A DNA stretch of 64,000 nucleotides, from contig NZ_SADE01000001.1 in NCBI RefSeq assembly GCF_004005845.1, forward strand, positions 1,054,001 through 1,118,000, written 5' to 3'. The translations under genes and the position numbers were made by a program. Shown one piece after another: positions 17,745 through 39,784 of this stretch. The notes beneath the pieces are model-generated. The model did not search any database, had not been told where the DNA came from, and was given only the letters and a program-made list of their open reading frames with translations. This DNA is from Hwanghaeella grinnelliae (GTDB lineage: Bacteria; Pseudomonadota; Alphaproteobacteria; UBA8366; Aestuariispiraceae). Numbering within the stretch: position 1 is the first letter of the stretch; each line of letters begins with the position of its first letter.

Positions 17745-17752
17745 ATTCCTGC

Positions 17753-18169: not shown

Positions 18170-19129
18170 TTACCTTGTATGGAGCGCCGCATTTGCGACC
18201 TGACGGACGCGACCGACTTCATCGGTGCCTTCATAAATACTGAACTGACCGTGCTGAACTTCGCTTCGGTAACGGTTGAGCATGCTGCGCTCCGCCGCGT
18301 TCTCGATTTTCTCCAAAGGAAAATCGGCAAGTCCTACGAAGGTCAGGCCGGCACCGGGAGAGCCCGACACCGTACCGTGGTAGAAGATCGAATGCGCACC
18401 GGACTCGTTGTCTCTGTAGATCGCGTAAAGAAAGTCCAAAGAGGGTTCTACGCCCTTTTCGACCAGCGTTTTGTTAAAGTGGCTTTCGCTCGCCTCCGGG
18501 CCGGTAACTTTAGGGAGGCTGAAGCGGCCGTGCGCATCGATCTTCACGAGCACGTCGTCCCCGCGTTGCAGCACTGCGCCGATCGTCAAATCCTGGGCCC
18601 GTGCGGCGGCTGAAACGAGTGTTTCCTCCAACCCAAGTGAAAAGTAGTTGCCTCGAAAAAAGCCCAGCGGCCGACCGTCGTCGATGTCGTACTCTTCCAC
18701 TTCTCCGACCAGGATGACGTGGTCGCCGGCATCCACGGCCTTGTCGCGTACGCATGTGAATGTTGCGAGTGAACCGGAGATCAATGGAACGTCGTGGCGC
18801 CCCGCGAACCAATCAGCAATATCGAATTTGTCCGGTCGCTGAGAAGCGAAAAGACCTGAAGCGTCTTTCTGATCCTCTTTAAGGATACTCACCCCGAAAT
18901 AAGCGGTGTTCGTAAACACATCGCAGCTATGTGCGGATTTTGCGATACAGACCAGGAGCATCGGCGGATCGAGCGACACCGATGTAAAGGAATTCGCTGT
19001 AAACCCCCTGGGGGCTCCGTCCGACTGGCGTGCGGTGACGACTGTGACCCCTGTGGGAAAGGCGCCAAACGCGGACCGCAGGGCATGCCTTTTCTCGTCT
19101 TTGATTGGATTCGCGATTCGAGTCGCCAT
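18170..19129 (-). CDS. Flavin reductase family protein with extra C-terminal domain
   Basis: A 319-residue protein. Residues 10-165 are a flavin-reductase/FMN-binding split barrel (RSAFGAFPTGVTVVTAR, GFTANSFTSVSLDPPMLLVC, DHVILVGEVEEYDIDDGRPL), the type that supplies reduced flavin to a separate monooxygenase. Ordinary members stop at 160-190 residues. Here about 140 more follow, with strands TIGAVLQRGDDVLVKIDAHG and RFSLPK that recall a Nudix-like fold but without an obvious Nudix box. A likely partner is the luciferase-like monooxygenase at 22057-23094 in the divergent arm. The role of the C-terminal part is unknown. Confidence 0.82.
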   Translation of the reverse strand: MATRIANPIKDEKRHALRSAFGAFPTGVTVVTARQSDGAPRGFTANSFTSVSLDPPMLLVCIAKSAHSCDVFTNTAYFGVSILKEDQKDASGLFASQRPDKFDIADWFAGRHDVPLISGSLATFTCVRDKAVDAGDHVILVGEVEEYDIDDGRPLGFFRGNYFSLGLEETLVSAAARAQDLTIGAVLQRGDDVLVKIDAHGRFSLPKVTGPEASESHFNKTLVEKGVEPSLDFLYAIYRDNESGAHSIFYHGTVSGSPGAGLTFVGLADFPLEKIENAAERSMLNRYRSEVQHGQFSIYEGTDEVGRVRQVANAALHTR

Positions 19130-19146: not shown

Positions 19147-19950
19147 CTATTCCAGAGTTTCTAGAAAAGATCGAATTGGCGCGTTTACCGCTTCCGGGTC
19201 CTCCATCAGACCCATATGCCTGAGGCCTGGTAGAACCACAGCGGTCGAGCCGGGAATTTCTGATGCAATCGCGCGCGTCATTTCCGGCCCGTTGCCGTAA
19301 TCTTCATCGCCGGTAACAATCAATGCAGGGCACGAAATCGGTGGTGATGGAGAAACGATTTCGTCGATCCCGCTGGCGAGAACTTCGTAATTGCTGGGAT
19401 ATATTTCAGGGTCATTGGCCAGGACCCAACGGCGCACCAGGTTCATCACGTCGGGATGGGAACTTCTGTAGGAATCGGTGAACCAACGGACCAATGCAGC
19501 CTCCACGGTGGCGCCGGGCCCTTCTTTTCGGGCGAGCTCCACGCGTGCAAGGATGTCCGCTTGCGCTTCCTTGCTCCGCTTGTGTGGTGAATTAAGGATT
19601 ACGAGGGCTTTCGTTTTCTCCGGGTAGTCTTGGGCAAAGCGCCTTGCGATCATGCCGCCGAGCGAGAATCCGACGATGACCGCACTATCCAACCGACAAG
19701 CCTCCAGCACCTTCGCCAACTGTTGGGAAAAAACAGTAAGAGAGGGTTTTTGCGGGGCTGCGGGACTGTCGCCGTGTCCGAAAAGGTCGTAGGTCACCGT
19801 CCGATAAGAGCCGGAGAACGCAGCAGTCTGGAACTGCCAAACCTCCTTATTGAGACCCAGACCATGAATGAACACGATTGGCTGTCCGTCTTCCGGACCG
19901 GCCAATTCATAGTTTGTACCGTCAGAACAAGTTCCGAACATCGTTACCAC
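19147..19950 (-). CDS. Alpha/beta hydrolase (RutD / enol-lactonase-like)
   Basis: A 267-residue alpha/beta hydrolase. The oxyanion-hole motif is IVFIHGLGLNKEVW, the nucleophile elbow is GFSLGG (Ser about residue 96), the acid Asp is probably in IVTGDEDYGNG, and the catalytic His is in GLRHMGLMEDP near the C terminus. The closest functional models are 3-oxoadipate enol-lactonase and RutD. It lies 3 bp after the RidA gene and 17 bp before the flavin reductase gene, an arrangement reminiscent of rutC-rutD-rutF in pyrimidine catabolism. Its actual substrate is not known. Confidence 0.83.
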   Translation of the reverse strand: MVTMFGTCSDGTNYELAGPEDGQPIVFIHGLGLNKEVWQFQTAAFSGSYRTVTYDLFGHGDSPAAPQKPSLTVFSQQLAKVLEACRLDSAVIVGFSLGGMIARRFAQDYPEKTKALVILNSPHKRSKEAQADILARVELARKEGPGATVEAALVRWFTDSYRSSHPDVMNLVRRWVLANDPEIYPSNYEVLASGIDEIVSPSPPISCPALIVTGDEDYGNGPEMTRAIASEIPGSTAVVLPGLRHMGLMEDPEAVNAPIRSFLETLE

Positions 19951-19953
19951 CGT

Positions 19954-20358
19954 TCATGCGTTGCGGTCAGGGAGGGGATGATAGGCGATGACTTCCACCT
20001 CGACGCGGCAGTCGACCAGCAGGTCACTGACAACGCATGACCGTGCCGGCGGTTCGCTTGGAAAGTAACGCCCATAGACCTCGTTGAAACCCGGGAAGTC
20101 GGCCCTGTCCTGGACCCAAACCATAGCTTTTACAACGTCCGTGAGCTGACACCCCGCTAATGCCAAGGTGGCCTGAATGTCATCGAGAACCGCTTCGGTC
20201 TGTTCTTCGATCGTACCGGTCGTCATTGGCGCGCCATCCTTCATCGGGATCTGGCCCGTCAGATAAACGCAGTCGCCCGCGCGGACGGCTCGCGAGAGAC
20301 TAAGTGTTCGTCCGTCGATGACGACCGGGCCGCCAACAATTTCTTTTTTCGGCGTCAT
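19954..20358 (-). CDS. RidA/YjgF/Rut-C-like enamine deaminase family protein
   Basis: A 134-residue member of the RidA (YER057c/UK114) family, which hydrolyses reactive enamine/imine or carbamate-type intermediates. Seen are VRAGDCVYLTGQIP, EEQTEAVLDDIQATLALAG, VVKAMVWVQD and the substrate-binding Arg in EPPARSCVV, followed by VEVEVIAYHP. It starts at the ATG at 20358 with GAGGGA just upstream and is the first gene of the leftward operon, divergent from the aldehyde dehydrogenase gene across 193 bp. The presence of RidA implies an unstable nitrogen-containing intermediate in the pathway, which is inference. Confidence 0.88.
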   Translation of the reverse strand: MTPKKEIVGGPVVIDGRTLSLSRAVRAGDCVYLTGQIPMKDGAPMTTGTIEEQTEAVLDDIQATLALAGCQLTDVVKAMVWVQDRADFPGFNEVYGRYFPSEPPARSCVVSDLLVDCRVEVEVIAYHPLPDRNA

Positions 20359-20551: not shown

Positions 20552-22033
20552 ATGACAGACATCAAAAACTATCAAATGCTGATCGACGGAAAATGGTCCG
20601 ATGCGTCCGGCAACGCGGCGTTCGACAGCTTTAATCCTGCGACGCAACAGGTCTGGGCGCGGATCCCGGAAGCGACGGAAAAAGATGTGGACCGGGCCGT
20701 GCGCGCTGCACATGCCGCTTTTGTCAGTGGTCCATGGGCAACGATGACACCGACGGAACGTGGGAAAATTCTGCGAAAGCTCGGGGATCTACTTGCCGAA
20801 AAATCCGAGGATCTCGGACGAACCGAGACCATCGATTCGGGAAAGTTGTTCAAAGAGACACGTTGGCAGGCCAAGTATATTTCGGAGTTTTTCCATTTTT
20901 TCGCCGGCTGTGCGGATAAAGTCCGTGGCGAGACACTGCCAATAGACAAGCCCGATCTGTTTGTTTTTACAAACCGTGAGCCTTTGGGTGTCGTCGCGTC
21001 TGTCGTCCCCTGGAATTCGCAGTTGTTTTTGGTGGCGGTGAAGATCGGGCCGGCACTCGCCGCCGGCAACACAGTGGTGCTCAAAGCCTCGGAACATGCT
21101 TCCGCTGCGATGCTGGAATTCGGCGAATTGATTGAGGAGGCGGGGTTTCCGCCCGGTGTCGTCAATATCGTCACGGGTCATGGCGACCCCTGTGGCAAGG
21201 CGCTGTCTTCCCACCCATTGGTCTCTCGAATTTCGTTTACCGGTGGGCCCAATGCAGCACGGCAAATCCTCCACAACTCCGCCGAAAACTTCGCGGAGGT
21301 GTCTTTGGAGTTGGGTGGGAAATCGCCGTTCATTGTTTTCGACGATGCGTCATTGGATAGCGCCGTCAATGCGTCCATTGCCGGTATTTTCGGCGCGTCG
21401 GGGCAGAGCTGCGTCGCCGGTTCGCGCCTCTATTTGCACGAGAATATCGCCGATGAATTTCTGGAGCGTATGACCGCGCAGGCGAAAAAAATAATCATTG
21501 GCGACCCATTGGCCGAGGACACTCAGATGGGGCCGTTATGCACACAAGGCCAGGTCGATCATATCACCAATCAAATCGCGATAGCTCAATCGGAAGGCGG
21601 GAAAGTCTTGTGTGGGGGCAAGAAGCCCGAGGGGATGAATGGTCTTTTCTTCGAACCGACAATTATCGATTGCCCTTCCCAGTCGATGACCATCGTGGAT
21701 ACCGAGTTGTTCGGGCCGGTTCTATGTGCGTTGCGATTCAAGACAGAGGAGGAAGTGATCGAACTGGCGAATGATACGAAACATGGGTTGGCCGCCGGGA
21801 TTTTCACGCGTGATGCAGCCCGGTCAATGCGGATGTCGAAAGCCGTAAGGGCCGGCATTGTCTGGGTAAACACCTACCGGGTCGTTTCGCCGATCGCCGA
21901 GTTCGGTGGCGTGAAGGGATCCGGTTATGGGCGCGAAAGCGGGTTCCAGGCGATGTACGACTATACCCGCCCGAAAACGGTTTGGTTCAACACCTCCGAT
22001 ACGCCAATCGCAAACCCATTTGTGATGCGCTGA
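20552..22033 (+). CDS. NAD(P)-dependent aldehyde dehydrogenase
   Basis: A 493-residue aldehyde dehydrogenase. Catalytic Cys287 is in GASGQSCVAGSR, general base Glu253 is in LELGGKSPF, and the cofactor/active-site Asn is in VPWNSQLFL. The domain runs from MLIDGKWSDA to the C-terminal GVKGSGYGRESG. The start at 20552 is the ATG that begins the conserved region; the frame is open further upstream but that part overlaps the divergent RidA gene. First gene of the rightward arm, followed after 23 bp by the monooxygenase gene. Betaine-aldehyde and aminobutyraldehyde-type dehydrogenases belong to this family, so an amino-aldehyde substrate is possible. Confidence 0.92.
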   Translation: MTDIKNYQMLIDGKWSDASGNAAFDSFNPATQQVWARIPEATEKDVDRAVRAAHAAFVSGPWATMTPTERGKILRKLGDLLAEKSEDLGRTETIDSGKLFKETRWQAKYISEFFHFFAGCADKVRGETLPIDKPDLFVFTNREPLGVVASVVPWNSQLFLVAVKIGPALAAGNTVVLKASEHASAAMLEFGELIEEAGFPPGVVNIVTGHGDPCGKALSSHPLVSRISFTGGPNAARQILHNSAENFAEVSLELGGKSPFIVFDDASLDSAVNASIAGIFGASGQSCVAGSRLYLHENIADEFLERMTAQAKKIIIGDPLAEDTQMGPLCTQGQVDHITNQIAIAQSEGGKVLCGGKKPEGMNGLFFEPTIIDCPSQSMTIVDTELFGPVLCALRFKTEEEVIELANDTKHGLAAGIFTRDAARSMRMSKAVRAGIVWVNTYRVVSPIAEFGGVKGSGYGRESGFQAMYDYTRPKTVWFNTSDTPIANPFVMR

Positions 22034-22056: not shown

Positions 22057-23094
22057 ATGAAATTCCAACTGGCAATCAACCTGGAGAGGTTGGACGAAAC
22101 GCTCGACATGAAGGATGTCGCGCAGCACACGCTTGAGATGGTCCAGATGGCTGACCGCGGCGGCTTTAATATCGTATGGGCTGCGGAACATCACGCGCTG
22201 GAAATGACCATCGCCCCAAACCCATTTCAAATCCTGACCTGGTGGGCCAATCACACGAACGATATCCGGTTGGGAACGGCGGTCGCCGTCGCGGCGTATT
22301 GGCATCCGATCAAGCTTGCCGGGGAAGCTGCCTTCACGGATTTGATCAGCGGCGGCCGGCTTGAATTTGGGATCGGTTCGGGCGCGTATCAACGTGAATT
22401 CGATCGCATGCATTCGGGACTTAAACAATCCGACGCATGGAAATACATGAATGAGATGCTTCCGGCGGTGAAGGCGCTGTGGGCCGGGGACTACGAGCAC
22501 AACGGGGAATTCTGGTCGTTCCCCAAGGCGACGTCGGTGCCAAAACCACTGCAGACCCCGCATCCGCCGATATGGGTCGCGGCGAGAGCACCCATTACCT
22601 ATGACTTTGCCGTCAAGAACGGATGCAACATCATGGCATGGCCGTTGACCCGTCCGTTTTCAGAAGCCGAGATGTACAAGCAGAGGCTGGATGACGCATT
22701 GGAGGCCAATCCGGGACAACCGCGGCCGACTTTCGCCATGATGCGGCATACGGCCGTCTACGACACAAAGGCGGAATGGGAAGTGCCGGTTCGTGCCGCT
22801 CAGCGCCAACTGGGGCAGTTCGAGAATCTGTTCAAGAACCTAGGCGACGTGGAAAACGGTTTCCCGAAGCAGATTCCCATCGAGGAACTGCAGAACCGGG
22901 ACGAATACAATCCGGAAATGTTGAGCGAGAACCTGATGTTCGGCACGCCGGATGACGTCATCGAGAAGCTGAAACGCTATGAAGCGCTAGGGGTCGACGA
23001 GTTCATCTACTACGCCAGCTTGGGGCTCGGACTTGCGGAACAGAAGCGGTCGTTGGAGCTGTTCTGTAACGAAGTCATACCGTCTTTTACCTGA
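22057..23094 (+). CDS. Luciferase-like (LLM) flavin-dependent monooxygenase
   Basis: A 345-residue TIM-barrel protein of the bacterial luciferase superfamily, which uses reduced FMN and oxygen. Recognisable stretches are WAAEHHALEMT, IRLGTAVAVAAYWHPIKLAG, GGRLEFGIGSGAYQREFDR and the C-terminal FGTPDDVIEKLKRYEALGVD. The ATG at 22057 has AAGAGGA upstream. RutA, alkanesulfonate and nitrilotriacetate monooxygenases share the fold. With the flavin reductase at 18170-19129 it would form a two-component oxygenase for C-N or C-S bond oxidation. The pairing across the divergent promoter is inferred from the absence of another reductase in the island. Confidence 0.87.
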   Translation: MKFQLAINLERLDETLDMKDVAQHTLEMVQMADRGGFNIVWAAEHHALEMTIAPNPFQILTWWANHTNDIRLGTAVAVAAYWHPIKLAGEAAFTDLISGGRLEFGIGSGAYQREFDRMHSGLKQSDAWKYMNEMLPAVKALWAGDYEHNGEFWSFPKATSVPKPLQTPHPPIWVAARAPITYDFAVKNGCNIMAWPLTRPFSEAEMYKQRLDDALEANPGQPRPTFAMMRHTAVYDTKAEWEVPVRAAQRQLGQFENLFKNLGDVENGFPKQIPIEELQNRDEYNPEMLSENLMFGTPDDVIEKLKRYEALGVDEFIYYASLGLGLAEQKRSLELFCNEVIPSFT

Positions 23095-23140: not shown

Positions 23141-23944
23141 ATGAGCTCTGGCGTGGAAGTTACCCGCAATGGTCGGGTGCTTGAAGTGAAAATGAATCGA
23201 CCAAAGGTCAACGCAATCGATATTCCGATGAGCCAGGAATTAGGGAAAGCGTTCGCGGAATTGCGTGACGACCCGGAATTATGGGTGGGGATCTTAACAG
23301 CGGAAGGAGAAAAGATTTTCTCTGCCGGTTGGGATCTCAAAGCGTTGAATGCCGGGGAGATGGAACTCGACAACTGGTGGGAGACCGCCGATTACGGGAT
23401 TGGCGGCTTCGCAGGACTGACGGAGAACTGGGAGCTCAACAAACCGGTGATCGCAGCCTTGAATGGCCTTGCAATAGGCGGCGGTTTCGAGGTCGCGATG
23501 AGTTGTGATCTTATCATCGCGGACGAGCACGTTGAATTCGGGCTGCCTGAAATGCCATTGGGTATCGTACCAGATGCCGGCGCGCTTCAGCGATTGCCGC
23601 GAAGAATACCGCATAATATTGCGATGGAAATGTTCCTGCTGGGACGCCGCATGACCGCTGTAGAGGCCGCCCATTATGGCCTGGTTAACAAGGTCGTACC
23701 GAAAGGCACGCATTTGGACGCGGCAAGAGAATGGGCGGAACAAATTGCATGGTCCGCGCCACTCGCGATGCAGAGTGTGAAGGAAGTGCAGCGCGCCATC
23801 GAGTCCATTCCATTGGAAGAAGCGTTCAAAAAAATGCGGACTGACGATCTGCCGACCTATCGGAAAATGTTGAAATCCGAAGATGCATTGGAAGGCGTGG
23901 CGGCGTTTGTCGAAAAGCGCCAACCGAATTTCAAAGGGCAATAG
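23141..23944 (+). CDS. Enoyl-CoA hydratase/isomerase (crotonase family)
   Basis: A 267-residue crotonase-fold protein. The oxyanion-hole regions are FSAGWDLKALN and NGLAIGGGFEVAMSCDLIIA; the acidic residues of the active site are expected in FGLPEMPLGIVPDAGALQRL, which is close to crotonobetainyl-CoA hydratase (CaiD) and related enzymes. It adds water to, or isomerises, a 2-enoyl-CoA. It sits between the LLM monooxygenase and a carnitine-dehydrogenase-like gene (4 bp gap to the latter). Together with the acyl-CoA dehydrogenase and the CoA ligase of the second segment it would complete a beta-oxidation turn. Confidence 0.9.
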   Translation: MSSGVEVTRNGRVLEVKMNRPKVNAIDIPMSQELGKAFAELRDDPELWVGILTAEGEKIFSAGWDLKALNAGEMELDNWWETADYGIGGFAGLTENWELNKPVIAALNGLAIGGGFEVAMSCDLIIADEHVEFGLPEMPLGIVPDAGALQRLPRRIPHNIAMEMFLLGRRMTAVEAAHYGLVNKVVPKGTHLDAAREWAEQIAWSAPLAMQSVKEVQRAIESIPLEEAFKKMRTDDLPTYRKMLKSEDALEGVAAFVEKRQPNFKGQ

Positions 23945-23948
23945 ACCA

Positions 23949-24899
23949 ATGGCGAATTATCCTAAGCCGGAATCCGTCACCCGTGTCGCAAGCCTCGGTG
24001 GCGGGCCGATCGGCGGTGGCTGGGCGGCCCATTTTCTGGCGCGTGGCTATGAAGTGTCCGCGTATCTTCACGACCCAGCCGAAGAGCCGACTTTTCGAGG
24101 GATACTTGAAACCGCATGGATCAGCCTGACTGAACTTGGTTTGGCGGAGGGGGCATCCCTTGATCGTTTGACGGTTACAAGCGACCTCGCCAAATCTGTC
24201 GATGGTGCGCAATTCATTCAGGAAAGCGGACCCGAGATCCTGCCTGTTAAAAGGGAACTCTATCGCAACCTGGGTGAGATTGTGCCGACCGATGTCGTGA
24301 TTGGGTCCTCGACCTCGGGGCTGACCATGACGGAGATACAGTTGGATTGTGCAACGCCGGAGCGTTGCGTCATCGGTCATCCCTTCAACCCGCCCTATCT
24401 CTTGCCGTTGGTGGAGATTGTGGGGGGGAAGAAGACCGCCGCCGACGCCGTTGCTTGGGCCGGTTCATTTTATCAGGTCGCGGGCAAGGCCCCCCTTATT
24501 ATGAAGAAGGAAATTCCGGGTTTTGTCGCGACACGACTTCAGGAAGCGCTTTGGCGGGAAGCCTTGCATATGGTCGACAATGACGAGGCGACCCCTGAGC
24601 AAATCGACATTGCCTTGAAAAACGGGCCGGCACCAAGGATGGTCGTTCAAGGCCAGTGCATGGCATTTCACGTAGCGTGCGGCGCCGGTGGAATGGCGAC
24701 AAATCTGGACCAATTCGGCCCGACGCTGAAACTTCCGTGGACAAGGCTGGCCGCGCCCGACCTAACCCAATCGCTGAGAGACAAGATGGTCGATGGGTGC
24801 AACGAGATGGCCGATCCGGCCGGGTTCGAGAAAATGGCGGAAGAGCGCGATAGAATGATTGTTGCGGTGTTGAAAGCCGTACAAGGGGGAGGCGGGTAG
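23949..24899 (+). CDS. 3-hydroxyacyl-CoA dehydrogenase family, L-carnitine dehydrogenase-like
   Basis: A 316-residue NAD-dependent dehydrogenase. The Rossmann motif is SLGGGPIGGGWAAHFLARG at residues 14-32, and the catalytic His is in GHPFNPPYLLPLVEIVGG, a segment typical of L-carnitine dehydrogenase, followed by KKEIPGFVATRLQEALWREAL. Unlike fatty-acid enzymes it has the extended tail with QFGPTLKLPWTRL. It would oxidise a 3-hydroxy acid to a 3-keto acid; in carnitine catabolism the product is dehydrocarnitine, the substrate of a BKACE enzyme, and a BKACE gene lies 1.3 kb away. The family call is strong, but carnitine as the actual substrate is inference. Confidence 0.85.
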   Translation: MANYPKPESVTRVASLGGGPIGGGWAAHFLARGYEVSAYLHDPAEEPTFRGILETAWISLTELGLAEGASLDRLTVTSDLAKSVDGAQFIQESGPEILPVKRELYRNLGEIVPTDVVIGSSTSGLTMTEIQLDCATPERCVIGHPFNPPYLLPLVEIVGGKKTAADAVAWAGSFYQVAGKAPLIMKKEIPGFVATRLQEALWREALHMVDNDEATPEQIDIALKNGPAPRMVVQGQCMAFHVACGAGGMATNLDQFGPTLKLPWTRLAAPDLTQSLRDKMVDGCNEMADPAGFEKMAEERDRMIVAVLKAVQGGGG

Positions 24900-24920
24900 A
24901 AACCGAGTGAAGCTGACGCT

Positions 24921-25982
24921 TTAGACCGGGTCCGGATCCATGGCATTCTCCACGCCGTGCTTCAGCTTCGTTCGACGCTCCAACGAATCCAAAAACTTGG
25001 AGAGCGTTCCCGGCCAACTTGGGGACGCATCATTTTCCGGCCATGCTTGACGGTACTCGCTGGGGCGTCGTTCAAAGCATTTTTTGAAGGCATAGGCGAA
25101 ATGGGACAGTGAGTTGAACCCGGAAGCAACGGCGATTTGCCGTACCCCCATATCGGTGGCGATCAACAACACGCGGGCATGTTGTAACCGCATCAAAAGA
25201 CTGTACTGCACGACGCTGCAGCCCATCGTGTGTTTGAACAGACGTTCCAGCTTCCGTTGAGAAACGCCAATATGATCCGCGACCTCGGGAACGGTCATTG
25301 GTTCGCTAATGTTCATTTCCATCAAGCCGATGGCGTCCCGGACGATGTAGGAGACCGTTTCCAACCCCCGTCCATGGGTCATTCGTTGGGGCGCCGCGGC
25401 CGGTCTGACCGGATGATGCATGATTTGATCGGATATTTCGCCGGCAAGTCTTTCCCCATGGTCCATCTGAATGAGAGTTAGCATCAGATCGAACCCGGCG
25501 GTACCGCCGGCGCATGACATTACTTTCCCGTCGATCGTGAACAGTTGTTCTTTCACCTCGGTTTCCGGATATTGTTCAAGAAAACCAACCATACATGACC
25601 AGTGAACGGTCGTTTCTTTGCGATTGAACACACCTGCTCGCGCACAGATATAGCTAGCGGTTTCTACAGCGCAGATTGAAATTCCGTAGCGGTGGTGTCG
25701 CCGCAACCAAGCTATCATCGCAGCGTTGTCGTAGTTCCATGCCCCCCAGCTACCCATCACGAATATGCGTGTTTCCCGGTCCTTGATTTCGGGGGGCGGG
25801 CCTTCGGCGCGCACGGTCAGTCCGTTGCTCGCCGTCATTTCGACGTTGTCAAAAGAATAGAAAACATGGTCGTAAACACGATCTGGGGAAAGATAATTCG
25901 CAATACGCATCGGCTCCAGCAATGCGTTCAAAGTCATCATGTTAAACCGGGGCAGGAGCAAAAAAACTACGTTCCGAGCCAT
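24921..25982 (-). CDS. GlxA-family AraC regulator (CdhR-like)
   Basis: A 353-residue transcription factor with an N-terminal class I glutamine-amidotransferase-like sensing domain (ARNVVFLLLPRFNMMTLNAL, then CAGGTAGFDLML) and a C-terminal AraC/XylS double helix-turn-helix (VPEVADHIGVSQRKLERLFK, then IAVASGFNSLSHFAYAFKK). This architecture is that of CdhR, GbdR and SouR, which sense carnitine, glycine betaine/dimethylglycine and sarcosine. The ATG at 25982 has GGCGGTGG upstream and starts the conserved domain. The gene is divergent from the BKACE-transporter operon (205 bp) and convergent with the carnitine-dehydrogenase-like gene, so it is probably the pathway activator. Confidence 0.88.
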   Translation of the reverse strand: MARNVVFLLLPRFNMMTLNALLEPMRIANYLSPDRVYDHVFYSFDNVEMTASNGLTVRAEGPPPEIKDRETRIFVMGSWGAWNYDNAAMIAWLRRHHRYGISICAVETASYICARAGVFNRKETTVHWSCMVGFLEQYPETEVKEQLFTIDGKVMSCAGGTAGFDLMLTLIQMDHGERLAGEISDQIMHHPVRPAAAPQRMTHGRGLETVSYIVRDAIGLMEMNISEPMTVPEVADHIGVSQRKLERLFKHTMGCSVVQYSLLMRLQHARVLLIATDMGVRQIAVASGFNSLSHFAYAFKKCFERRPSEYRQAWPENDASPSWPGTLSKFLDSLERRTKLKHGVENAMDPDPV

Positions 25983-26157
25983 CGATCCACCGCCTATCAA
26001 AAAGATGCGCATTATTAGAAAAAACACCGGTCCTAATGTAGGTGGCGCAAAATTCGGGTAATGCGAAAAATCGTCAAACACAAGATTACTGCTGTCAAAT
26101 TATCGATACAAGGAGGCATGTGGCTGTACACAAACTATCGAAAAATTACGACAGGTT

Positions 26158-26174
26158 GCCGACATTCGGCTTTT
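26158..26174 (+). promoter_or_regulatory. Small hairpin with T-run in the BKACE leader
   Basis: GCCGA-CAT-TCGGC followed by TTTT lies 13 bases before the BKACE start. The five-pair stem is too short for an efficient terminator. It may be an operator half or a weak attenuator. Confidence 0.3.
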
Positions 26175-26187
26175 AAAGGGGCAGTAG

Positions 26188-27078
26188 ATGAATTCCGACG
26201 TTATCCTTACATGTGCGGTTACAGGCGCGGGCGACACCACGGGTCGTAGTCCCCATGTACCGGTCACTCCGCAACAAATTGCAGATGCCAGTATCGAAGC
26301 CGCGAAAGCCGGAGCGTCGATTGTCCACGTGCATGTGCGTGACCCTGAAACCGGAAAGGGATCGCGCGACCCCGAGCTGTTCAGGGAGACAGTTGAACGA
26401 ATTCGCGAAAGCGACACGGATGTTGTAATCAACCTCACTGCGGGTATGGGGGGCGATTGGGTTCCTGACGCCGACAATCCGGCGATGCCCGGCCCGGGCA
26501 CCGACATGATCGGGCCGGAAGATCGTTTGCGTCATGTGGAATTGTGCAAGCCCGAAATCTGTTCCCTGGACTGCGGTACCCTCAACTTCGGGAATGGAGA
26601 TGAGATTTATATCTCAACGCCCCCTACCTTGCGCGCGATGGCGGCGATGGTGAAAGAGTGGGGTGTGAAGCCCGAAATGGAAGTATTTGATCTGGGCCAT
26701 ATTCGGTTTGCAACTCAGATGGTCTCAGAGGGATTGATCGCCGATCAACCGCTATTCCAAATCTGCTTGGGCATTCCATGGGGCGCGGATCACACTGTTG
26801 ATACGCTAAAAGTTATGAAGGATCAGCTTCCTTCGAACGCCATATGGGGTGGGTTCGGGATATCCCGCATGCAGATGGCCATGGCAGCGGCATCTGTCGC
26901 GATGGGTGGCAATATAAGGGTAGGGCTGGAGGACAACCTCTATCTTTCACGTGGGGTGTTGGCAACGAATGCGCAGCTCGTCGAGCGGGCGGTTCAATTG
27001 GTGAACCTGATGGGAGGGCGCGTCGTCTCCCCCCAAGAAGCACGGAACAAGCTCAACTTACTTGGCTGCGATAAGTAG
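26188..27078 (+). CDS. BKACE (DUF849) beta-keto acid cleavage enzyme
   Basis: A 296-residue TIM-barrel enzyme of the beta-keto acid cleavage family, which condenses a beta-keto acid with acetyl-CoA and releases acetoacetate plus a new CoA ester. Diagnostic parts are [20 protein letters not shown] at the N terminus, the zinc-binding [15 protein letters not shown] (His-x-His), the Glu/Arg region [13 protein letters not shown], and the C-terminal VRVGLEDN-like motif (here [14 protein letters not shown]). Dehydrocarnitine cleavage and 3-keto-5-aminohexanoate cleavage are the known reactions. Beside a carnitine-dehydrogenase-like gene and a CdhR-like regulator, a dehydrocarnitine-type substrate is the leading idea. 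It is followed by the transporter operon. Confidence 0.9.
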
Positions 27079-27085
27079 ATCCCCC

Positions 27086-28084
27086 ATGACCCTTCCCGAT
27101 ACCGGCGACTTATCGATCAAGAATGTAACCAAGACCTTCGGGTCGACGACTGCGGTCGATCACGTAAACCTGGAAGTGCAACGAGGAGAGTTTTTGACGC
27201 TCCTCGGACCATCCGGTTCCGGAAAAACGACTTTGCTGATGATGATCGCGGGATTTGAGGACGCGTCATCCGGTGATATCGCGTTGGACGGCGCGTCGAT
27301 CCTAAATGTTCCGGCGGAAAAGCGGAATTTCGGCATGGTCTTTCAGGGCTATGCCCTGTTCCCGCATATGACCGTCCGCCGCAATATTTCCTATCCCCTT
27401 GACGTTAGAAAGCGCCCGAAATCTGAAATTGAAAGTCGTGTCGAAGAGATGCTGGCGCTGGTCCAACTGGAAGGGTTTGGGGATCGTCTGCCGAAGCAAC
27501 TCTCTGGCGGGCAACAGCAGCGCGTTGCCCTTGCGCGTGCGCTATGCTTCGCGCCGCCCGTTTTATTGTTGGATGAGCCGCTTGGCGCCCTGGACAAAAA
27601 ATTGCGGATTGAGGTTCAGGCTCAGCTTAAGGCGATCCATGATCGCGTCGGTACGACCTTCCTCTACGTCACGCACGACCAGGAAGAAGCGCTTTCGATG
27701 TCCGACCGGATCGTGATCATGCGTGACGGCAAGATCGAGCAGGTCGGTACGCCAAACGAGTTGTACGAAAAGCCGCGCACCGTCTTTGCGGCGGACTTCC
27801 TTGGAAAAAGCAACTTCCTGGAGCGGTCGGAAGCGACCTATGCCTTGCGTCCGGAGAAGATCGACGTGGCGCCGTCGGGCGACTTGCAGTGCGCCGTGTC
27901 GGTAACGGGAAAAATTCAAACCATCTCCTATTTCGGCGCTGTCCAGAAGCTGATGGTGATGCTCGATGACGGGAAATGCTTGGAGGTCGACGTCGATATT
28001 TGGCGGAACCGCAACGCGTTTTCGGTGGGCCAAGTTGTTGACTTGGGATGGACCGATGACGCCGTCACAAAACTAGAAGGTTAG
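27086..28084 (+). CDS. Polyamine-type ABC transporter ATP-binding protein (PotA-like)
   Basis: ATPase of a spermidine/putrescine-type importer, 332 residues. Walker A is GPSGSGKTT, the signature LSGGQQQRVALARAL, Walker B LLLDEPLGALD, with the D-loop KKLR and the switch His in YVTHDQEEAL. A TOBE domain occupies about the last 80 residues. The ATG at 27086 is preferred; an in-frame TTG at 27062 would overlap the BKACE gene. Seven bases separate it from the BKACE stop. Relatives transport polyamines, betaines, opines or mannopine. Confidence 0.92.
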   Translation: MTLPDTGDLSIKNVTKTFGSTTAVDHVNLEVQRGEFLTLLGPSGSGKTTLLMMIAGFEDASSGDIALDGASILNVPAEKRNFGMVFQGYALFPHMTVRRNISYPLDVRKRPKSEIESRVEEMLALVQLEGFGDRLPKQLSGGQQQRVALARALCFAPPVLLLDEPLGALDKKLRIEVQAQLKAIHDRVGTTFLYVTHDQEEALSMSDRIVIMRDGKIEQVGTPNELYEKPRTVFAADFLGKSNFLERSEATYALRPEKIDVAPSGDLQCAVSVTGKIQTISYFGAVQKLMVMLDDGKCLEVDVDIWRNRNAFSVGQVVDLGWTDDAVTKLEG

Positions 28085-28171
28085 AGTTTCTAGCAACTGG
28101 GAATGCTCCCTTGGTTAAGGGGGTCAAAATCAAAAGGGGCCGACTTTTACCGGTTTCTGTTTTTTGAACAT

Positions 28172-28177
28172 GGAGGG
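28172..28177 (+). promoter_or_regulatory. Ribosome-binding site deciding a GTG start
   Basis: GGAGGG lies seven bases before a GTG at 28185. The upstream in-frame TTG (28164) and ATG (28170) would place this site inside the coding region or leave them without any site, so GTG is the likely start of the binding-protein gene. Confidence 0.65.
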
Positions 28178-28184
28178 TTTTTCA

Positions 28185-29291
28185 GTGGATAAGCAGTTTT
28201 TAAAGGAATCCGTTCAACAAGGTGCGGTGGCGTTCAAGGCCGGAAAAATGGATAGGCGCGCGTTCCTGACGCTTTGTGCCATGGCCGGCGTCGCAGTATC
28301 CGCAGTCGCTCGCGGCGACGCACATGCCGCCGCAAACCAGATAATCCTGTGGAACTGGGGTGGATCATCCGAAGTGTGCCACGGCCAGTACATCGCCGAA
28401 CCATTCACGGAATCTACCGGGATCGGCGTCGGCTTCGATACGTCGGGTCCGCTTCAGGGCAAGATTAAGGCGATGGTCGACTCCGGCAGTGTCACGGCAG
28501 ACGTATGCGATGCCGATGCATTTGACGCGATCGCGCTCGGAGATTCAGGTCATCTCGAGCCCATCGATTACAGTGTTGTTGATAAGGCGAAGGTGCTGGA
28601 CGGGTTCGCCTGGGAATATGGCGTCTCGATCATATTCTACGGCTATGCCTTCATGTACGACACTGAGGCATATGGCGACAATCCGCCGAACTCATGGGCT
28701 GACTTTTTTAATACCGCGGAATTCCCTGGGAAACGCTCGCTGTACAAGTGGGCAAACGGCTCATTGGAAGGCGCGCTCTTAGCCGATGGTGTCAGCAAAG
28801 ACGCGCTGTATCCACTGGACCTCGATCGTGCCATTGCGAAGGTCAAGACGATCAAGGAAGACAGCCTTTATTGGGGATCCGGCTCGGAAGCGCATTCCAT
28901 GATCGTCAATGGCGAAGTCAGCATGGGGATGGTTTGGCAAAATCGCGGAAAAGCGATCGAGGACGACACGGACGGCAGGTACAAACTTGTCATGAACGAG
29001 GCGCTTGCAATGCCAGGTGCCTATATTGTGCCGCGCGGCAACCCGGCCGGCCGTGATGCGGTCATGAAGTTCATTCAAACGGCTCAAGACCCGAAAGCTC
29101 AACTTGGGTTGCTGGATTGCCTCGGTATGACGCCGACCAATCCCACCGCGTTCGGGATGATTCCGGAGGGACAGAAAGCCTACGCAATTACCTCCGCAAT
29201 GAATATCGACAAGGTCGTCTACAACGATCCGGTTTGGTGGGGTGCCAATTCCGAGAAAGCAGTGAACGCTTTCTTGGAAGCCATTAGCTGA
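28185..29291 (+). CDS. Polyamine-type substrate-binding protein (PotD-like), Tat signal
   Basis: Extracytoplasmic binding protein of the importer, 368 residues from the GTG chosen for its ribosome-binding site. After a polar n-region of about 24 residues comes KMDRRAFLTLCAMAGVAVSA, a twin-arginine signal (D-R-R-A-F-L) with cleavage near ARGDAHA-A. This points to export of the folded protein by Tat. The domain is the Pot/SBP_bac_8 type, starting NQIILWNWGGSSEVCHGQ and containing YGVSIIFYGYAFMYD. The ligand cannot be read off; a cationic amine or betaine would fit the family and the neighbouring enzymes. Confidence 0.88.
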   Translation: MDKQFLKESVQQGAVAFKAGKMDRRAFLTLCAMAGVAVSAVARGDAHAAANQIILWNWGGSSEVCHGQYIAEPFTESTGIGVGFDTSGPLQGKIKAMVDSGSVTADVCDADAFDAIALGDSGHLEPIDYSVVDKAKVLDGFAWEYGVSIIFYGYAFMYDTEAYGDNPPNSWADFFNTAEFPGKRSLYKWANGSLEGALLADGVSKDALYPLDLDRAIAKVKTIKEDSLYWGSGSEAHSMIVNGEVSMGMVWQNRGKAIEDDTDGRYKLVMNEALAMPGAYIVPRGNPAGRDAVMKFIQTAQDPKAQLGLLDCLGMTPTNPTAFGMIPEGQKAYAITSAMNIDKVVYNDPVWWGANSEKAVNAFLEAIS

Positions 29292-29305
29292 CGTCACTGC
29301 AATGC

Positions 29306-29338
29306 TCGGGGGTGAAACGGTTTCTGTTTCACCCCCGA
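29306..29338 (+). promoter_or_regulatory. Perfect intercistronic stem-loop after binding-protein gene
   Basis: A perfect 13-bp inverted repeat (TCGGGGGTGAAAC and GTTTCACCCCCGA) with a 7-base loop follows the binding-protein stop by 14 bp and precedes the first permease by 32 bp. It has no T-run. It probably protects the upstream mRNA or partly blocks read-through so that the binding protein is made in excess. Confidence 0.75.
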
Positions 29339-29370
29339 ATTGCCCATTCAGTCCAAATTGTGAGTGTTCT

Positions 29371-30213
29371 ATGACTTGGCGGCTTCCAATACACAGCGGA
29401 TGGTTGATGATATTGCCATTTTTGGCGGTCATCGCAGGATTCTATATCTATCCCATCGCTAATGTGCTGTGGCTCAGCGTGGTTGAACCGGAGCCGGGTC
29501 TGGGCAATTACGCGGCCTTGTTCGATACGGAATCGTTACGCCGAATTATTCTTACAACCATTCGTATTTGTGTTGTTACCACGTTCTTCAGTGTTCTGTT
29601 CGGATACACGATCGCCTATGCCATGGTTCATATGGATCAGCGTAAGCAGAACCTGATGCTTGCCCTCGTTTTGGTCTCGTTTTGGATTTCCATCCTAGTC
29701 CGTACATTTTCTTGGCTAATGTTGCTTGGGCATAACGGGCTGCTCAATAATGGTTTGCAGGCCATTGGTGTGATCAATGAACCGATCGCCTTCGTCAGGA
29801 ACGAGTTGGGGGTCCTGATCGGCATGATCCACTACATGATTCCATACGCTGTTCTGCCGCTTTTGGTGAATATGCGGAATCTGGACATGCGGGTCATGCG
29901 CGCCTCTCAGAACCTTGGCGCAACGGGAACGCAAACCTTCCTGCGTGTCTATTTGCCGATGACGATTCCAGGTATCGTCGCGTCCACGATTCTTGTTTTC
30001 ATCCTAAGCCTCGGGTTCTACGTCACGCCGGCAATTCTCGGCGGCGGCAAAGTGCTGATGATCGCCGAGTACATTTCGGTTCAGATTCTGATCACGCTGA
30101 AATGGGGTACGGCTGCCATGCTGGCGACGCTCATGCTGTTTGGTGTCTTGGGCATGTTGTACGTGATGTCGCGTTTCATGAAGCTTTCCGCAGTGTTTGG
30201 GGGAGGACGGTAA
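29371..30213 (+). CDS. Polyamine-type ABC permease (PotB-like)
   Basis: Inner-membrane permease of 280 residues. The start is the ATG at 29371, after the stem-loop; an upstream in-frame ATG at 29302 would put the hairpin inside the gene and adds no conserved sequence. Hydrophobic segments run from WLMILPFLAVIAGFYIYPIA onward (six helices), and the coupling motif is MRASQNLGATGTQTFLRVYLP at about residues 177-198. The stop overlaps the next start by one base (TAATG). Confidence 0.9.
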   Translation: MTWRLPIHSGWLMILPFLAVIAGFYIYPIANVLWLSVVEPEPGLGNYAALFDTESLRRIILTTIRICVVTTFFSVLFGYTIAYAMVHMDQRKQNLMLALVLVSFWISILVRTFSWLMLLGHNGLLNNGLQAIGVINEPIAFVRNELGVLIGMIHYMIPYAVLPLLVNMRNLDMRVMRASQNLGATGTQTFLRVYLPMTIPGIVASTILVFILSLGFYVTPAILGGGKVLMIAEYISVQILITLKWGTAAMLATLMLFGVLGMLYVMSRFMKLSAVFGGGR

Positions 30214-31007
30214 TGCGTCGAAAGTCCTTTGCCGACCGTATCCGCACCTGTGCCGTATGGTCGCTCCTTATGTTTCTCGTGCTCCCGGCCCTTGTCGCTA
30301 TTCCGGTCTCTTTAACGCCTAAACGGTTTCTCTCATTCCCCTCGAGTGAGTTGTCGTTGAGGCATTTCGAGACGCTGATCAATAGCAGCCAATGGATATC
30401 CAGTTTCTTCCAGAGTGCCACGATCGCTGGAGCAACCGCGCTGCTTTCCACCATTTTCGGCACGTTGTGTGCGGTCGGATTGTGGCGGGTTTCTTCAAAG
30501 ATGGGGGAGACGGTGCGGGCCTTTCTTCTGCTGCCGCTGATCATCCCGCAGATCATTTCGGCGATGGCATTTTACCATCTCTGGATTCCTCTAGGAATAT
30601 TGGACAGTTATCCGGGATTGATCCTTGCCCACACCATCCTGGCGACCCCGATGGTCTTGATAACCGTCAGCGCGTCCCTGGCAAATTTTGACCCAAAGTT
30701 GGAGCAAGCCTCCCGCAACCTGGGTGCATCCACCATGACCACCCTATGGATGGTCATTCTACCGTCGATCAAACCCGGCGTTTGGGCAGGGGCCCTGTTT
30801 GCCTTCATCCTGTCTTGGGATGAGATCGTCGTCACGCTCTTCATTTCACGCTTCTCGGTCTACACGCTGCCGAGACGGATGTGGAACGGCATTCGCGAAA
30901 ACACGGATCCAACGGTCGCATCCGCGGCGGTTGTCCTGATTGTTCTGACCGCACTGGCCTTTGTCTCGTATGAACTGATCATCCGCAAACGCCAGAGATC
31001 TGCTTGA
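30213..31007 (+). CDS. Polyamine-type ABC permease (PotC-like)
   Basis: Second permease, 264 residues, starting at the ATG that shares one base with the previous stop. It opens with a basic stretch MRRKSFADRIRT and a long first helix, and the coupling loop reads EQASRNLGASTMTTLWMVIL at about residues 163-182. The C terminus is ELIIRKRQRSA. It is followed after 19 bp by the acyl-CoA dehydrogenase gene, so transport and catabolic genes are in one transcription unit. Confidence 0.9.
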   Translation: MRRKSFADRIRTCAVWSLLMFLVLPALVAIPVSLTPKRFLSFPSSELSLRHFETLINSSQWISSFFQSATIAGATALLSTIFGTLCAVGLWRVSSKMGETVRAFLLLPLIIPQIISAMAFYHLWIPLGILDSYPGLILAHTILATPMVLITVSASLANFDPKLEQASRNLGASTMTTLWMVILPSIKPGVWAGALFAFILSWDEIVVTLFISRFSVYTLPRRMWNGIRENTDPTVASAAVVLIVLTALAFVSYELIIRKRQRSA

Positions 31008-31026: not shown

Positions 31027-32187
31027 GTGGAATATCAAATTTCCCATGAAAATGAGCTTGTCCTGAACACGGTGCGCGCCTTCATGGAAGAAGAGCTGCT
31101 GCCGCATGAGGAAGAGGTGGACCGGCTTGGCGAGGTCCCCGAAGACTTGGGTCGGCAAATCGAAGCCCGTGCAAAGGAAGTGGGTCTGTTTGCTGCCAAT
31201 CTACCGGAAGACGTCGGCGGTGGCGGTCTGAATTATTCAGCCATGGCCCTCGTGGAACGCGAATACGGCAAGACGTCTCACGCGTTGCATTCCTGGATCG
31301 CCAGACCGACAGAGATTCTGCTCGCCTGTGACGATGCGCAGAGGGAAGAATACCTGGCGCCGTGTGTTTCCGGCGAGAAGCGCGAGTTGTTCGCCCTGAC
31401 GGAGCCTGAGGCGGGTTCCGATGTTATGGGAATGAAGTCGACGGCGCGAAAGGATGGCGACGATTGGATTCTGAACGGGTCTAAACACTTCATTTCCGGC
31501 CCCTGTATGCCCGACTTCGCCATCGTTTTCGCGGCAACAGGTGTCGATGAAACCCCGCGGGGACCGCGCAAGCGTGTGACCGCATTTCTTGTCGATGTGG
31601 GGTTGCCCGGGTTTGATATCCAAGAAGGCAACAAATGCGTCAGTTACCGCGGATACAAGACCTATCAACTCGCATTCGATGACGTCCGCATTGGGCCCGA
31701 CAAAATGCTGGGGGTAGAGGGACGTGGTCTGGAACTCGCCGGCAAATGGCTCGGCATGGGAAGAATCTGGGTCGGTGCGACCTGTTGCGGTAAGGCGGAA
31801 CGTTTGTTGGAAATGGCAACGGATTGGGCCGCTAGCCGCAAACAGTTCGGCAAGCCGATTGGGCAGTTCCAGGCGACGGGTTTTCGGTTGGCCGACATGA
31901 CAATGGGATTGCGGGCGGCGGACCTGATGGTCACCGATGCCGTTCAACGTGCCGATGCCGGTGCGTTGCGTGACGAAGACGCAGCGATGGTAAAGGTGTT
32001 CTGCTCGGAAATGCTCAATCGCGTAGCGGACGATACAGTGCAGATTTTCGGCGGGATGGGCTTGATGGAAGAACTGCCCGTTCAGCGGCTATGGCGCGAT
32101 TCCCGTTTGGAACGAATCTGGGATGGCACATCGGAAATCCAGCGCCACATTATTACGCGGAGCATCTTGAGGCCTCTGGGCGCATGA
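31027..32187 (+). CDS. Acyl-CoA dehydrogenase
   Basis: A 386-residue FAD-dependent acyl-CoA dehydrogenase of ordinary length. It starts with GTG preceded by GGAGAGAG. Motifs are FALTEPEAGSDVMGMKSTAR (FAD/substrate contact), GSKHFISG, the flavin-binding RKQFGKPIGQFQATGFRLADM, FGGMGLMEELPVQRLWRD, and the C-terminal RIWDGTSEIQR. The catalytic Glu position should be the E of RIWDGTSEIQR or on helix G, depending on subgroup. CaiA and gamma-butyrobetainyl-CoA dehydrogenases are family members. It overlaps the next gene as ATGA and likely acts on the CoA ester that the synthetase makes. Confidence 0.92.
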   Translation: MEYQISHENELVLNTVRAFMEEELLPHEEEVDRLGEVPEDLGRQIEARAKEVGLFAANLPEDVGGGGLNYSAMALVEREYGKTSHALHSWIARPTEILLACDDAQREEYLAPCVSGEKRELFALTEPEAGSDVMGMKSTARKDGDDWILNGSKHFISGPCMPDFAIVFAATGVDETPRGPRKRVTAFLVDVGLPGFDIQEGNKCVSYRGYKTYQLAFDDVRIGPDKMLGVEGRGLELAGKWLGMGRIWVGATCCGKAERLLEMATDWAASRKQFGKPIGQFQATGFRLADMTMGLRAADLMVTDAVQRADAGALRDEDAAMVKVFCSEMLNRVADDTVQIFGGMGLMEELPVQRLWRDSRLERIWDGTSEIQRHIITRSILRPLGA

Positions 32188-34286: not shown

Positions 34287-35428
34287 CGGGGCTGGAAACA
34301 TTTCCCAATCCGGATCTGGTAGTCGGCGACGACCACAAACAGCAATGGATGCGCGCGGCCTTCAGGCGCAATGGGTTTCACAATGCGGATCGCCTTTTCA
34401 GGCGTGCGCGCAGTTTTCGTGCCGCCCGCGTCCTCGCCCTTGAAGAATCCTATTGCCCTAAGCTTATGGGTTTGGATGCGACGCGTCGGCTTTCAGAGCA
34501 GCCATATCTTTCCGCATTGGTCGTCGCACGCGGCAACGAAATCTTACTCGAGGTGCGCGCACCCGACTTCCCCGTATCGCAAACACACTCCATACAATCT
34601 GTCACGAAATTGCACATACATCTGATGGTCGGATGGTTGATAGCGGAAGGTCGCATCGATCCCACCTTGCCGGTGTCGCGTGTTCTGCCTGACATTGGCG
34701 ATGGTTATCGCCATGTCACGGTCCAGGACTTGCTGGACATGCAGGTGGTGAATGATTTTTCCGAGGATTACAGCGACCCCAATGCCGATTGTTATCGGGA
34801 AGAAGTCGCCCTTGGATGGCGTCTGCCGCCGCAGGGGGAGAGCGAGTCCGGCCTGTCGGATTTCGCCCATGGGATCGGTGGGGCGGGCGTGAGAGCCGGT
34901 GACGGTGTTGTCCATTACAAATCGGTGAACACCGATGTCTTAACGCTGATTTGCTCACAAGTGTCGCCGGTCCCCTTGGAACAATTGATAGAGGCTGTCG
35001 TATCCGCCGCTGGTTATGAGGGAGCTTTTCATATCAGTATCAGCCCGGATGGGTATCCAGCCTTTTCTGGGGGCGGTTGTCTCACCGCCCGGGATGCGGT
35101 TCGGCTTGGATTGTTGTTCGCCCGATGGGGCGCTGGACCGGATGGATCTACGATGTTCAATGGAGCCTTCCTGAGGAAAAGCATCGAACGATCCGCCCCG
35201 CGTTTCAAACCGCCGCGACAGCACGTCCGATATTCGAACCATCTGATGACCAACGGTGTTTGGGTTGGTCATGCGGGGTACGGCGGCCAATTTGTCATGG
35301 CTGATCCTAACCGCGGCGTAGCAGCGGCCTTTCTAAGTGTCCTGGACAATGAGTCCGGATATGACGAACGGTACATGGAAAACGTGGTGCGAGATCTCGA
35401 TACAGTGATATCCAGCGTCGGCGCCTAG
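34283..35428 (+). CDS. Serine hydrolase of the beta-lactamase / 6-aminohexanoate-dimer hydrolase fold
   Basis: A 381-residue penicillin-binding-protein-like hydrolase. The Ser-x-x-Lys motif is SVTK at about residues 107-110 (SIQSVTKLHIH), the Tyr-x-Ser/Asn counterpart is VHYKSVNTD, and the third box is around WVGHAGYGGQFVMAD. No signal peptide is seen, so it is probably cytoplasmic and acts on an imported amide or ester, as NylB-type and EstB-type enzymes do, and not on cell wall. Its ATG overlaps the acyl-CoA synthetase stop, which ties it to the catabolic operon: it may release the acid that the ligase activates. Confidence 0.83.
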   Translation: MTGLETFPNPDLVVGDDHKQQWMRAAFRRNGFHNADRLFRRARSFRAARVLALEESYCPKLMGLDATRRLSEQPYLSALVVARGNEILLEVRAPDFPVSQTHSIQSVTKLHIHLMVGWLIAEGRIDPTLPVSRVLPDIGDGYRHVTVQDLLDMQVVNDFSEDYSDPNADCYREEVALGWRLPPQGESESGLSDFAHGIGGAGVRAGDGVVHYKSVNTDVLTLICSQVSPVPLEQLIEAVVSAAGYEGAFHISISPDGYPAFSGGGCLTARDAVRLGLLFARWGAGPDGSTMFNGAFLRKSIERSAPRFKPPRQHVRYSNHLMTNGVWVGHAGYGGQFVMADPNRGVAAAFLSVLDNESGYDERYMENVVRDLDTVISSVGA

Positions 35429-37677: not shown

Positions 37678-37678
37678 C

Positions 37679-38356: not shown

Positions 38357-38367
38357 GGGCAGGCGAC

Positions 38368-39711: not shown

Positions 39712-39721
39712 GGGGAGCACG

Positions 39722-39750
39722 AAAGGCGCGGCGCGGATGCCGCGCCTTTT
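39722..39750 (+). terminator. Terminator-like hairpin before the GlnT/GmaS gene
   Basis: A perfect 11-bp stem (AAAGGCGCGGC with GCCGCGCCTTT), a 6-base loop and a run of four T bases lie 10 bp after the FMN-subunit stop and 34 bp before the ligase start. It should end or attenuate transcription so that the ligase is made at a lower level or from its own promoter. Confidence 0.7.
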
Positions 39751-39784
39751 CCAATTCATGGACAGACAATGGGGAACGGATTGC

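Follow-up and report, generated by a model that had tools for sequence, protein, structure and literature searches.

Does a carnitine-dehydrogenase-like gene that lies next to a CdhR-like regulator and a BKACE gene mean that its host degrades carnitine? The question is raised by positions 23949-27078 of a 64,000-nucleotide stretch of the Hwanghaeella grinnelliae genome (the window: C1:1054001-1118000 of an assembly of 5.3 Mb in 7 contigs), which a sequence-only reading took to encode aerobic carnitine catabolism. The three genes do lie side by side, as NCBIfam and Pfam matches agree, and the hydratase, acyl-CoA dehydrogenase and ADP-forming ligase said to accompany them are all present. We give an even chance to a different reading of the whole, in which these genes would be part of a catabolic unit of ~20 kb where a paralogue of an entire gamma-butyrobetaine/carnitine operon has been rewired to an oxygenase module resembling TgnABCDF. 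The locus is real and conserved, and best match probably misreads it. The genes in question are as follows.

15450..16052, minus strand: PF06684 (DUF1185, AA_synth) protein of the TgnF family (Pfam E 1e-65)
18170..19129, minus strand: flavin reductase of the HsaB/HpaC type (PF01613, E 2.6e-40)
19147..19941, minus strand: PcaD-like alpha/beta hydrolase, with a presumed TgnD-type role
19954..20358, minus strand: RidA / L-PSP family protein of the imine or enamine hydrolase type (PF01042, E 2.4e-27)
20552..22033, plus strand: aldehyde dehydrogenase (ALDH), its start placed by eye at the ATG before TDIKNY
22057..23094, plus strand: luciferase-like flavin monooxygenase (LLM; PF00296, E 5.1e-55)
23141..23944, plus strand: enoyl-CoA hydratase (ECH), crotonobetainyl-CoA hydratase-like (NF002936, 313 bits, cut-off 500)
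23949..24899, plus strand: 3-hydroxyacid dehydrogenase of the carnitine dehydrogenase family (CDH), divergent clade, 316 amino acids (Pfam 3HCDH_N and 3HCDH)
~24921..25982, minus strand: transcriptional regulator of the GlxA/GbdR/CdhR type (DJ-1_PfpI and HTH_18)
26188..27078, plus strand: BKACE (PF05853, E 2.4e-101)
27086..28084, plus strand: ATP-binding cassette (ABC) transporter ATPase, Pot-type
28164..29291, plus strand: periplasmic binding protein, SBP_bac_8, PotD-like
29302..30213, plus strand: ABC permease, PotB-like
30213..31007, plus strand: ABC permease, PotC-like
31027..32187, plus strand: acyl-CoA dehydrogenase (ACAD)
32184..34286, plus strand: ADP-forming acyl-CoA ligase, its start placed by eye at the ATG that overlaps the stop codon of ACAD

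The companions of the CDH gene recur well beyond this genome. A search with the window CDH gave 579 confirmed matches in named genomes, and the best 80 were fetched as related loci; many of these loci end early, so counts over the 80 are lower bounds, and they were made by two methods, tblastn at no less than 40% identity and clustering of called genes, whose figures differ slightly. By tblastn, 77 loci contain ECH, 69 BKACE, 61 ACAD, 54 the ligase and 43 the regulator. Because the companions recur in this way, the gene set is not a product of chance. Most hosts are Alphaproteobacteria, chiefly Rhodobacterales, Hyphomicrobiales and SAR116; some are Gammaproteobacteria, one a sponge symbiont to judge by its name; many of their names, though not all, are marine, and Ruegeria, Roseovarius, Sulfitobacter, Planktomarina and SAR116 are among them.

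The Hwanghaeella genome contains five BKACE genes and three strong CDH-family matches. Elsewhere on the same contig is a canonical gamma-butyrobetaine/carnitine operon (L042, C1 at ~2.155-2.162 Mb), in which CDH lies beside BKACE together with ACAD, ligase, hydratase and CdhR, and whose CDH scores 473 bits with the L-carnitine dehydrogenase model (cut-off 414). The top NCBIfam model of the window CDH is NF005471, L-carnitine dehydrogenase (E 2.9e-86), at 289 bits and thus below the cut-off of 414. Identity between the window and L042 is 57% for BKACE, 47% for CDH, 51% for ACAD, 41% for the ligase and 52% for the hydratase. Three further BKACE paralogues of the genome are at C3:278775, C2:507990 and C2:786345.

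Canonical and window-type sets also occur together in genomes G303 and G079, in the latter on one contig. Across these two genomes and that of Hwanghaeella (G000), window-type copies are 68-73% identical to each other for BKACE, 64-68% for CDH, 62-75% for ACAD, 47-51% for the ligase and 66-67% for the hydratase; the corresponding values between window-type and canonical copies of the same genome are 53-66, 41-47, 51-59, 38-44 and 45-52%. As the window-type copies of all five enzymes resemble each other above the canonical copy in their own genome, the window set is a whole-operon paralogue, and we are highly confident that it forms an operon distinct from, and paralogous to, the canonical one. 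In G303, a canonical operon with a CDH-thioesterase fusion adjoins the window-type operon, with a phosphoenolpyruvate carboxykinase gene between them. Operons standing side by side in the same gene order are seen in G303 (L046/L233) and, to the contig limit, in Candidatus Puniceispirillum of SAR116 (L168).

The CDH tree separates the two types. Window-type sequences form one clade (100/99), apart from a canonical clade (100/100) that includes the own-genome copy and the thioesterase-fused copies and that is anchored by the model scores of two members and by the fusion, not by assayed enzymes. Every third window-type row was used in the CDH and BKACE trees (29 of 85 and 26 of 76, respectively); the identity cut mislabelled L182 for CDH and L020 and L026 for BKACE, and thus the label of window type does not denote a single clade, while the remaining rows that carry it group together.

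Alignment of 86 window-type CDHs with 9 canonical ones, the intermediates L019 and L020 being kept apart, shows differences at several positions. Every window-type sequence (86/86) has Thr at position 195, where every canonical one (9/9) has Asp. By alignment this position corresponds to the NR-motif Asn of 3-hydroxyacyl-CoA dehydrogenases and lambda-crystallin, which we take to be an active-site position. Position 225 is Tyr in 7/9 canonical sequences versus Asn in 75/86 of the window type, position 231 is Trp in 8/9 versus Met in 60/86, and position 233 is Phe in 8/9 versus Val, Leu or Ile in 59/86. The residues taken as catalytic, His144 and Glu156, are retained in the sequences displayed, and other positions still carry aromatic residues in the window type. 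Asp195, Tyr225, Trp231 and Met180, as well as BKACE Trp173, are present in both canonical sets from G303 and G079, which played no part in finding these positions; Glu190 and Phe233 are found in just one of the two.

The window BKACE contains His47, His49, Glu163, Arg244, Glu248 and Asp249, whose metal-binding and catalytic roles are presumably as in Kce. Among 74 window-type and 10 canonical BKACEs, the latter including intermediates L019 and L020, position 173 is Arg in 73/74 of the former and Trp in 9/10 of the latter; positions 169 and 91 also differ, and a Trp91 is gained in the window type. One BKACE group is listed with positively charged substrates in an excerpt of PMC4922564. From the residue changes in both enzymes we infer that the window enzymes would not bind a quaternary ammonium group. 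The carnitine claim of the sequence-only reading is therefore kept in part: the enzyme families and the carnitine-type architecture stand, and the assignment to carnitine is weakened by the canonical operon elsewhere in the genome, the CDH score below the cut-off and the separate CDH clade.

The window type of CDH is accompanied by an oxygenase/ALDH/hydrolase module, a link that the sequence-only reading did not draw. In the Tgn system, the luciferase-family oxygenase is TgnA; TgnB, TgnC and TgnD are a flavin reductase, an aldehyde dehydrogenase and an alpha/beta hydrolase, respectively. Among the 38 longest related loci (>20.7 kb), ALDH is found in 28, LLM in 27, the hydrolase in 26, RidA in 23, PF06684 in 21, a CoA-transferase/flavin reductase fusion in 17 and the binding protein in 12; over all 80 loci, RidA is found in 37. 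LLM, ECH and CDH are adjacent and co-directional in the window and in many relatives. Of 385 sampled genomes of the class, 7 carry a window-type CDH (at least 58% identity, own genome included), and LLM (at least 57%) occurs in 7/7 of these versus 7 of the 378 others (Fisher p 1.5e-11, which overstates independence, as four of the seven genomes are one family). LLM sits on a different contig from the window-type CDH in two of them, G079 and G034.

Some members of this module have further features of their own. The gene at 15450..16052 gives the only PF06684 match in the whole genome. The top solved-structure matches of the window ALDH are, by a small margin, putative gamma-hydroxymuconic semialdehyde dehydrogenases. 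The fusion of a class III CoA-transferase with a flavin reductase occurs in 23/80 loci (e.g. L166:4241-6334), on the flank that carries the flavin reductase in the window; its CoA-transferase part is of the succinyl-CoA:mesaconate type, with a score below the cut-off.

The module also exists alone. In 15 of 36 other LLM loci (L094, L109-L111, L213, L214, L217-L224 and L226), LLM, ALDH, hydrolase, flavin reductase and PF06684 occur all together with no CDH or BKACE, and in L225 and L227 the module is complete except for a recognised reductase. Parts of a Pot-type transporter are present in 6 of the 15 (L094, L109, L217, L218, L220 and L223). A tblastn search with the window-set transporter and LLM gave no match at the canonical operons L042, L057, L058, L233 and L234. 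The binding protein is found in 19 window-type loci, 17 of which also have LLM, and in 8 of 54 genomes of one genus. On balance, the transporter travels with the oxygenase module, suggesting that what is imported would meet the oxygenase first. For carnitine itself, an ABC transporter of Ruegeria pomeroyi, cntTUVW (SPO2995-2998), is given as verified in an excerpt of PMC10130141.

A tree of LLM sequences (every third CDH-context LLM, 54 of 89 rows overall) places 16 of the 19 stand-alone rows in one clade and the window type on the opposite side (100/100 each), with stand-alone rows L094, L213 and L214 on the window side. Since the clades are separate, the window LLM likely acts on a different but related substrate. 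At L092, L095, L100 and L212, the LLM/ALDH/hydrolase module occurs with an Xsc-like thiamine-pyrophosphate enzyme in place of CDH and BKACE, and L095 adds a dimethylglycine-dehydrogenase-like protein. These neighbours hinted at sulfonates or N-methyl amino acids and are not decisive.

Put together, the genes can be arranged into a candidate pathway. The Pot-type transporter would import an N-heterocyclic, probably N-methylated, compound, whose ring would be opened by LLM with the flavin reductase, as the Tgn gene set suggests. Oxidation by ALDH would then give an acid; removal or tidying of the amine or formyl part could fall to the alpha/beta hydrolase, RidA and the PF06684 protein. The ADP-forming ligase, ACAD and ECH belong to families that form a CoA ester, desaturate it and hydrate it, and they may act in that order. 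The CDH-like enzyme, with its catalytic His and Glu in place, would convert the 3-hydroxy acid to a 3-oxo acid, which BKACE, whose catalytic residues are likewise present, would cleave with acetyl-CoA into an acyl-CoA and acetoacetate. We can envisage two variants: the amine may leave early, so that the lower pathway receives a neutral or acidic carbon skeleton, or what passes through that pathway may be a neutral N-methylformamido four-carbon acid (with the 4-aminobutyrate skeleton expected from a pyridine ring).

The strength of the parts of this proposal differs. The acid that enters the CoA-dependent steps is probably neutral or anionic, and not a quaternary ammonium betaine. That carnitine is not the substrate of the window set we hold with moderate confidence, and that the substrate is an N-methyl heterocycle with low to moderate confidence; our guess at the leading candidates is homarine- or trigonelline-like N-methylpyridinium compounds. 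The fullest form of the proposal is tentative and falls somewhat short of an even chance: a marine pathway not yet described, where an N-methylated heterocyclic osmolyte would have its ring opened by a flavin monooxygenase, and the rest of its carbon skeleton would be left to a duplicated carnitine operon, re-tuned off cations and working through a new BKACE substrate.

We also considered the thioesterase that would be expected to act on betainyl-CoA. In agreement with the sequence-only reading, tblastn found none in the window, nor was one found in the window-type loci L046-L051 or in the 80 related loci, many of which end early. At canonical or intermediate loci of five genomes it is present, as the C-terminal part of a fused CDH or as a separate gene next to CDH (L030/L057, L034, L035, L024/L054 and, as a separate gene, L019/L052), and it also occurs at the canonical loci of G303 and G079. 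Little weight can be put on its absence: the canonical operons L042 and L058 have none either, and a distant relative is encoded elsewhere in the Hwanghaeella genome (E 1.9e-15).

These last two facts are among several that weigh against our proposal. Of the 38 longest related loci, 11 gave no LLM, and at L114 and L150 the CDH set and the transporter occur with no LLM within the locus. The LLM tree sets the window type apart from 16/19 of the stand-alone, Tgn-like rows. One same-genome pair of window-type and canonical BKACEs is 66% identical, and in the BKACE tree the window type (95/89) is nested close to the canonical copies. The residue argument comes from alignment, with substrate contact presumed for CDH 195, 225 and 231 and for BKACE 173, and it has exceptions: Trp231 is retained in 21/86 window-type CDHs; Lys180, which is fixed in the window type, also occurs in the CDH of G163 (L236) together with Asp195, Tyr225 and Trp231; and paralogues with mixed residues exist, L237 having Asn195 and L238 having Asp195 and Tyr225 with Met231. 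The canonical BKACE of Hwanghaeella itself has Ala173, and Trp173 is therefore not essential. Loss of the aromatic residues, which the sequence-only reading had named as a refutation of the carnitine assignment, is seen in part: two or three aromatic positions in CDH and a single one in BKACE, all of them putative cage positions, have changed, the last being a Trp that the canonical BKACE of the same genome also lacks.

Carnitine as the main substrate was displaced as the leading view by the second, canonical set, the residue losses and the separate CDH clade, and we keep it as a rival. In its best form, which we consider unlikely, the window would hold a second, isofunctional carnitine/gamma-butyrobetaine operon, with the oxygenase and ALDH making trimethylaminobutyraldehyde and gamma-butyrobetaine from a longer precursor. 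CDH and ECH do best match carnitine-pathway enzymes, the top model of the regulator is GbdR (236 bits, cut-off 480) and the ALDH best matches betaine-aldehyde dehydrogenase, all of them below cut-off; the closeness of the BKACEs and the loci L114 and L150, where the transporter stays with the CDH set in the absence of LLM, fit this explanation as well. It is opposed by the presence of two sets in one genome, the separate CDH clade and the thioesterase that was not found, by the loss of CDH Asp195 and Tyr225 and of Trp173 in most BKACEs, and by the transporter, which 6/15 stand-alone loci have together with the oxygenase module and which gave no match at the five canonical operons.

Still less probable is a pathway for a carnitine homologue that differs in chain length or onium group, such as delta-valerobetaine or the dimethylsulfonio acid gonyol, in which the pocket changes would reflect a different cation. 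The enzyme logic would be identical, many hosts belong to marine genera, aromatic residues stay at other CDH positions and BKACE gains Trp91, but neither the loss of an acidic residue at CDH 195 nor the gain of Arg173 in BKACE suggests a cation, and the RidA, PF06684 and hydrolase genes would be left without an evident role. The least probable explanation is that the oxygenase module and the CDH/BKACE operon are mere neighbours with two unrelated substrates: either is found without the other, but the adjacent, co-directional arrangement of LLM, ECH and CDH and the presence of LLM in all seven class-sample genomes with a window-type CDH, in G079 and G034 on another contig, speak against it.

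Several other genes lie within or beside the unit rewired, on our preferred reading, from a carnitine operon.

16092..17270, minus strand: second acyl-CoA dehydrogenase, start uncertain, the open frame extending to 17990
34283..35428, plus strand: beta-lactamase-fold serine hydrolase (PF00144, E 3.4e-14), present in 15/80 related loci
35469..36125, minus strand: Xre-cupin regulator, cluster membership uncertain
36748..41113, plus strand: class II amidotransferase, GXGXG and glutamate-synthase-like subunits, and type III glutamine synthetase, loosely attached

The second ACAD is the best match in just 3/80 related loci, at 31-33% identity, and the open frame at 16092-17990 is unusually long upstream of the domain. 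The set at 36748..41113, which we take to be of the N-methylglutamate synthase / GMAS type, immediately precedes ECH-CDH in L146 and L147 and follows it in L122 (3/80 loci, high identity). Together with RidA, it hints at the release of an amine, e.g. methylamine, although the link is loose. Farther off, 7463-9499 encodes a flavoprotein of the 2,4-dienoyl-CoA reductase (FadH) type (767 bits to 1ps9), which adjoins a peptide-type ABC transporter.

Best match reads the window genes as carnitine dehydrogenase and a carnitine-type BKACE, and does so in many marine genera. If the window enzymes act on something else, carnitine use predicted from such genomes by best match is overstated and a widespread pathway for a nitrogen compound is missed. 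CDH positions 195 and 225 and BKACE position 173, along with an LLM neighbour, offer a simple rule that separates the two types of operon.

Of the known systems, aerobic carnitine/gamma-butyrobetaine catabolism shares the same five enzyme families and the regulator family with the window set, and the catalytic residues of CDH and BKACE are kept. The window set differs in its separate CDH clade, its altered pocket-type residues, the thioesterase that was not found and the added oxygenase module and transporter. Excerpts of two papers bear on this comparison: that of PMC12482172 states the canonical carnitine pathway and a dual-function Sinorhizobium enzyme, and that of PMC12421898 describes an island in SAR11 that encodes CDH, BKACE, ALDH and gamma-butyrobetaine dioxygenase, with no mention of LLM. 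By title or start of abstract, none of the papers listed from the open-licence part of PubMed Central joins gamma-butyrobetaine or carnitine with a luciferase-like monooxygenase.

The Rut uracil pathway (RutA, C, D and F) has in common with the window a luciferase-like oxygenase, RidA, an alpha/beta hydrolase and a flavin reductase, and differs from it in ALDH, PF06684 and the lower pathway. It was considered for RidA and the hydrolase and set aside, with RutF at 72 bits (cut-off 255) and RutD at 75 (cut-off 238.5).

The closest counterpart of the upper part is the trigonelline system TgnABCDEF of Acinetobacter baylyi ADP1, five of whose protein types (TgnABCDF) are matched by the window module, the comparison being by type and not with the TgnA sequence. 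Among the window proteins scanned, which represent part of the window genes, one ALDH and no TgnE-like succinate semialdehyde dehydrogenase were recognised. PF06684 is described as the family of TgnF, of trigonelline degradation in Acinetobacter baylyi, in an excerpt of PMC7913881, and an excerpt of PMC2954203 reports structures of the family and gives no function. Relative to Tgn, the window adds RidA and couples the module to CoA-dependent beta-oxidation and BKACE. Homarine catabolism, the subject of a 2026 paper (Nat Microbiol 11:1531) cited in an excerpt of PMC13390433, possibly concerns the same class of marine N-methylpyridine substrate, and that paper may already describe part of the pathway encoded in the window.

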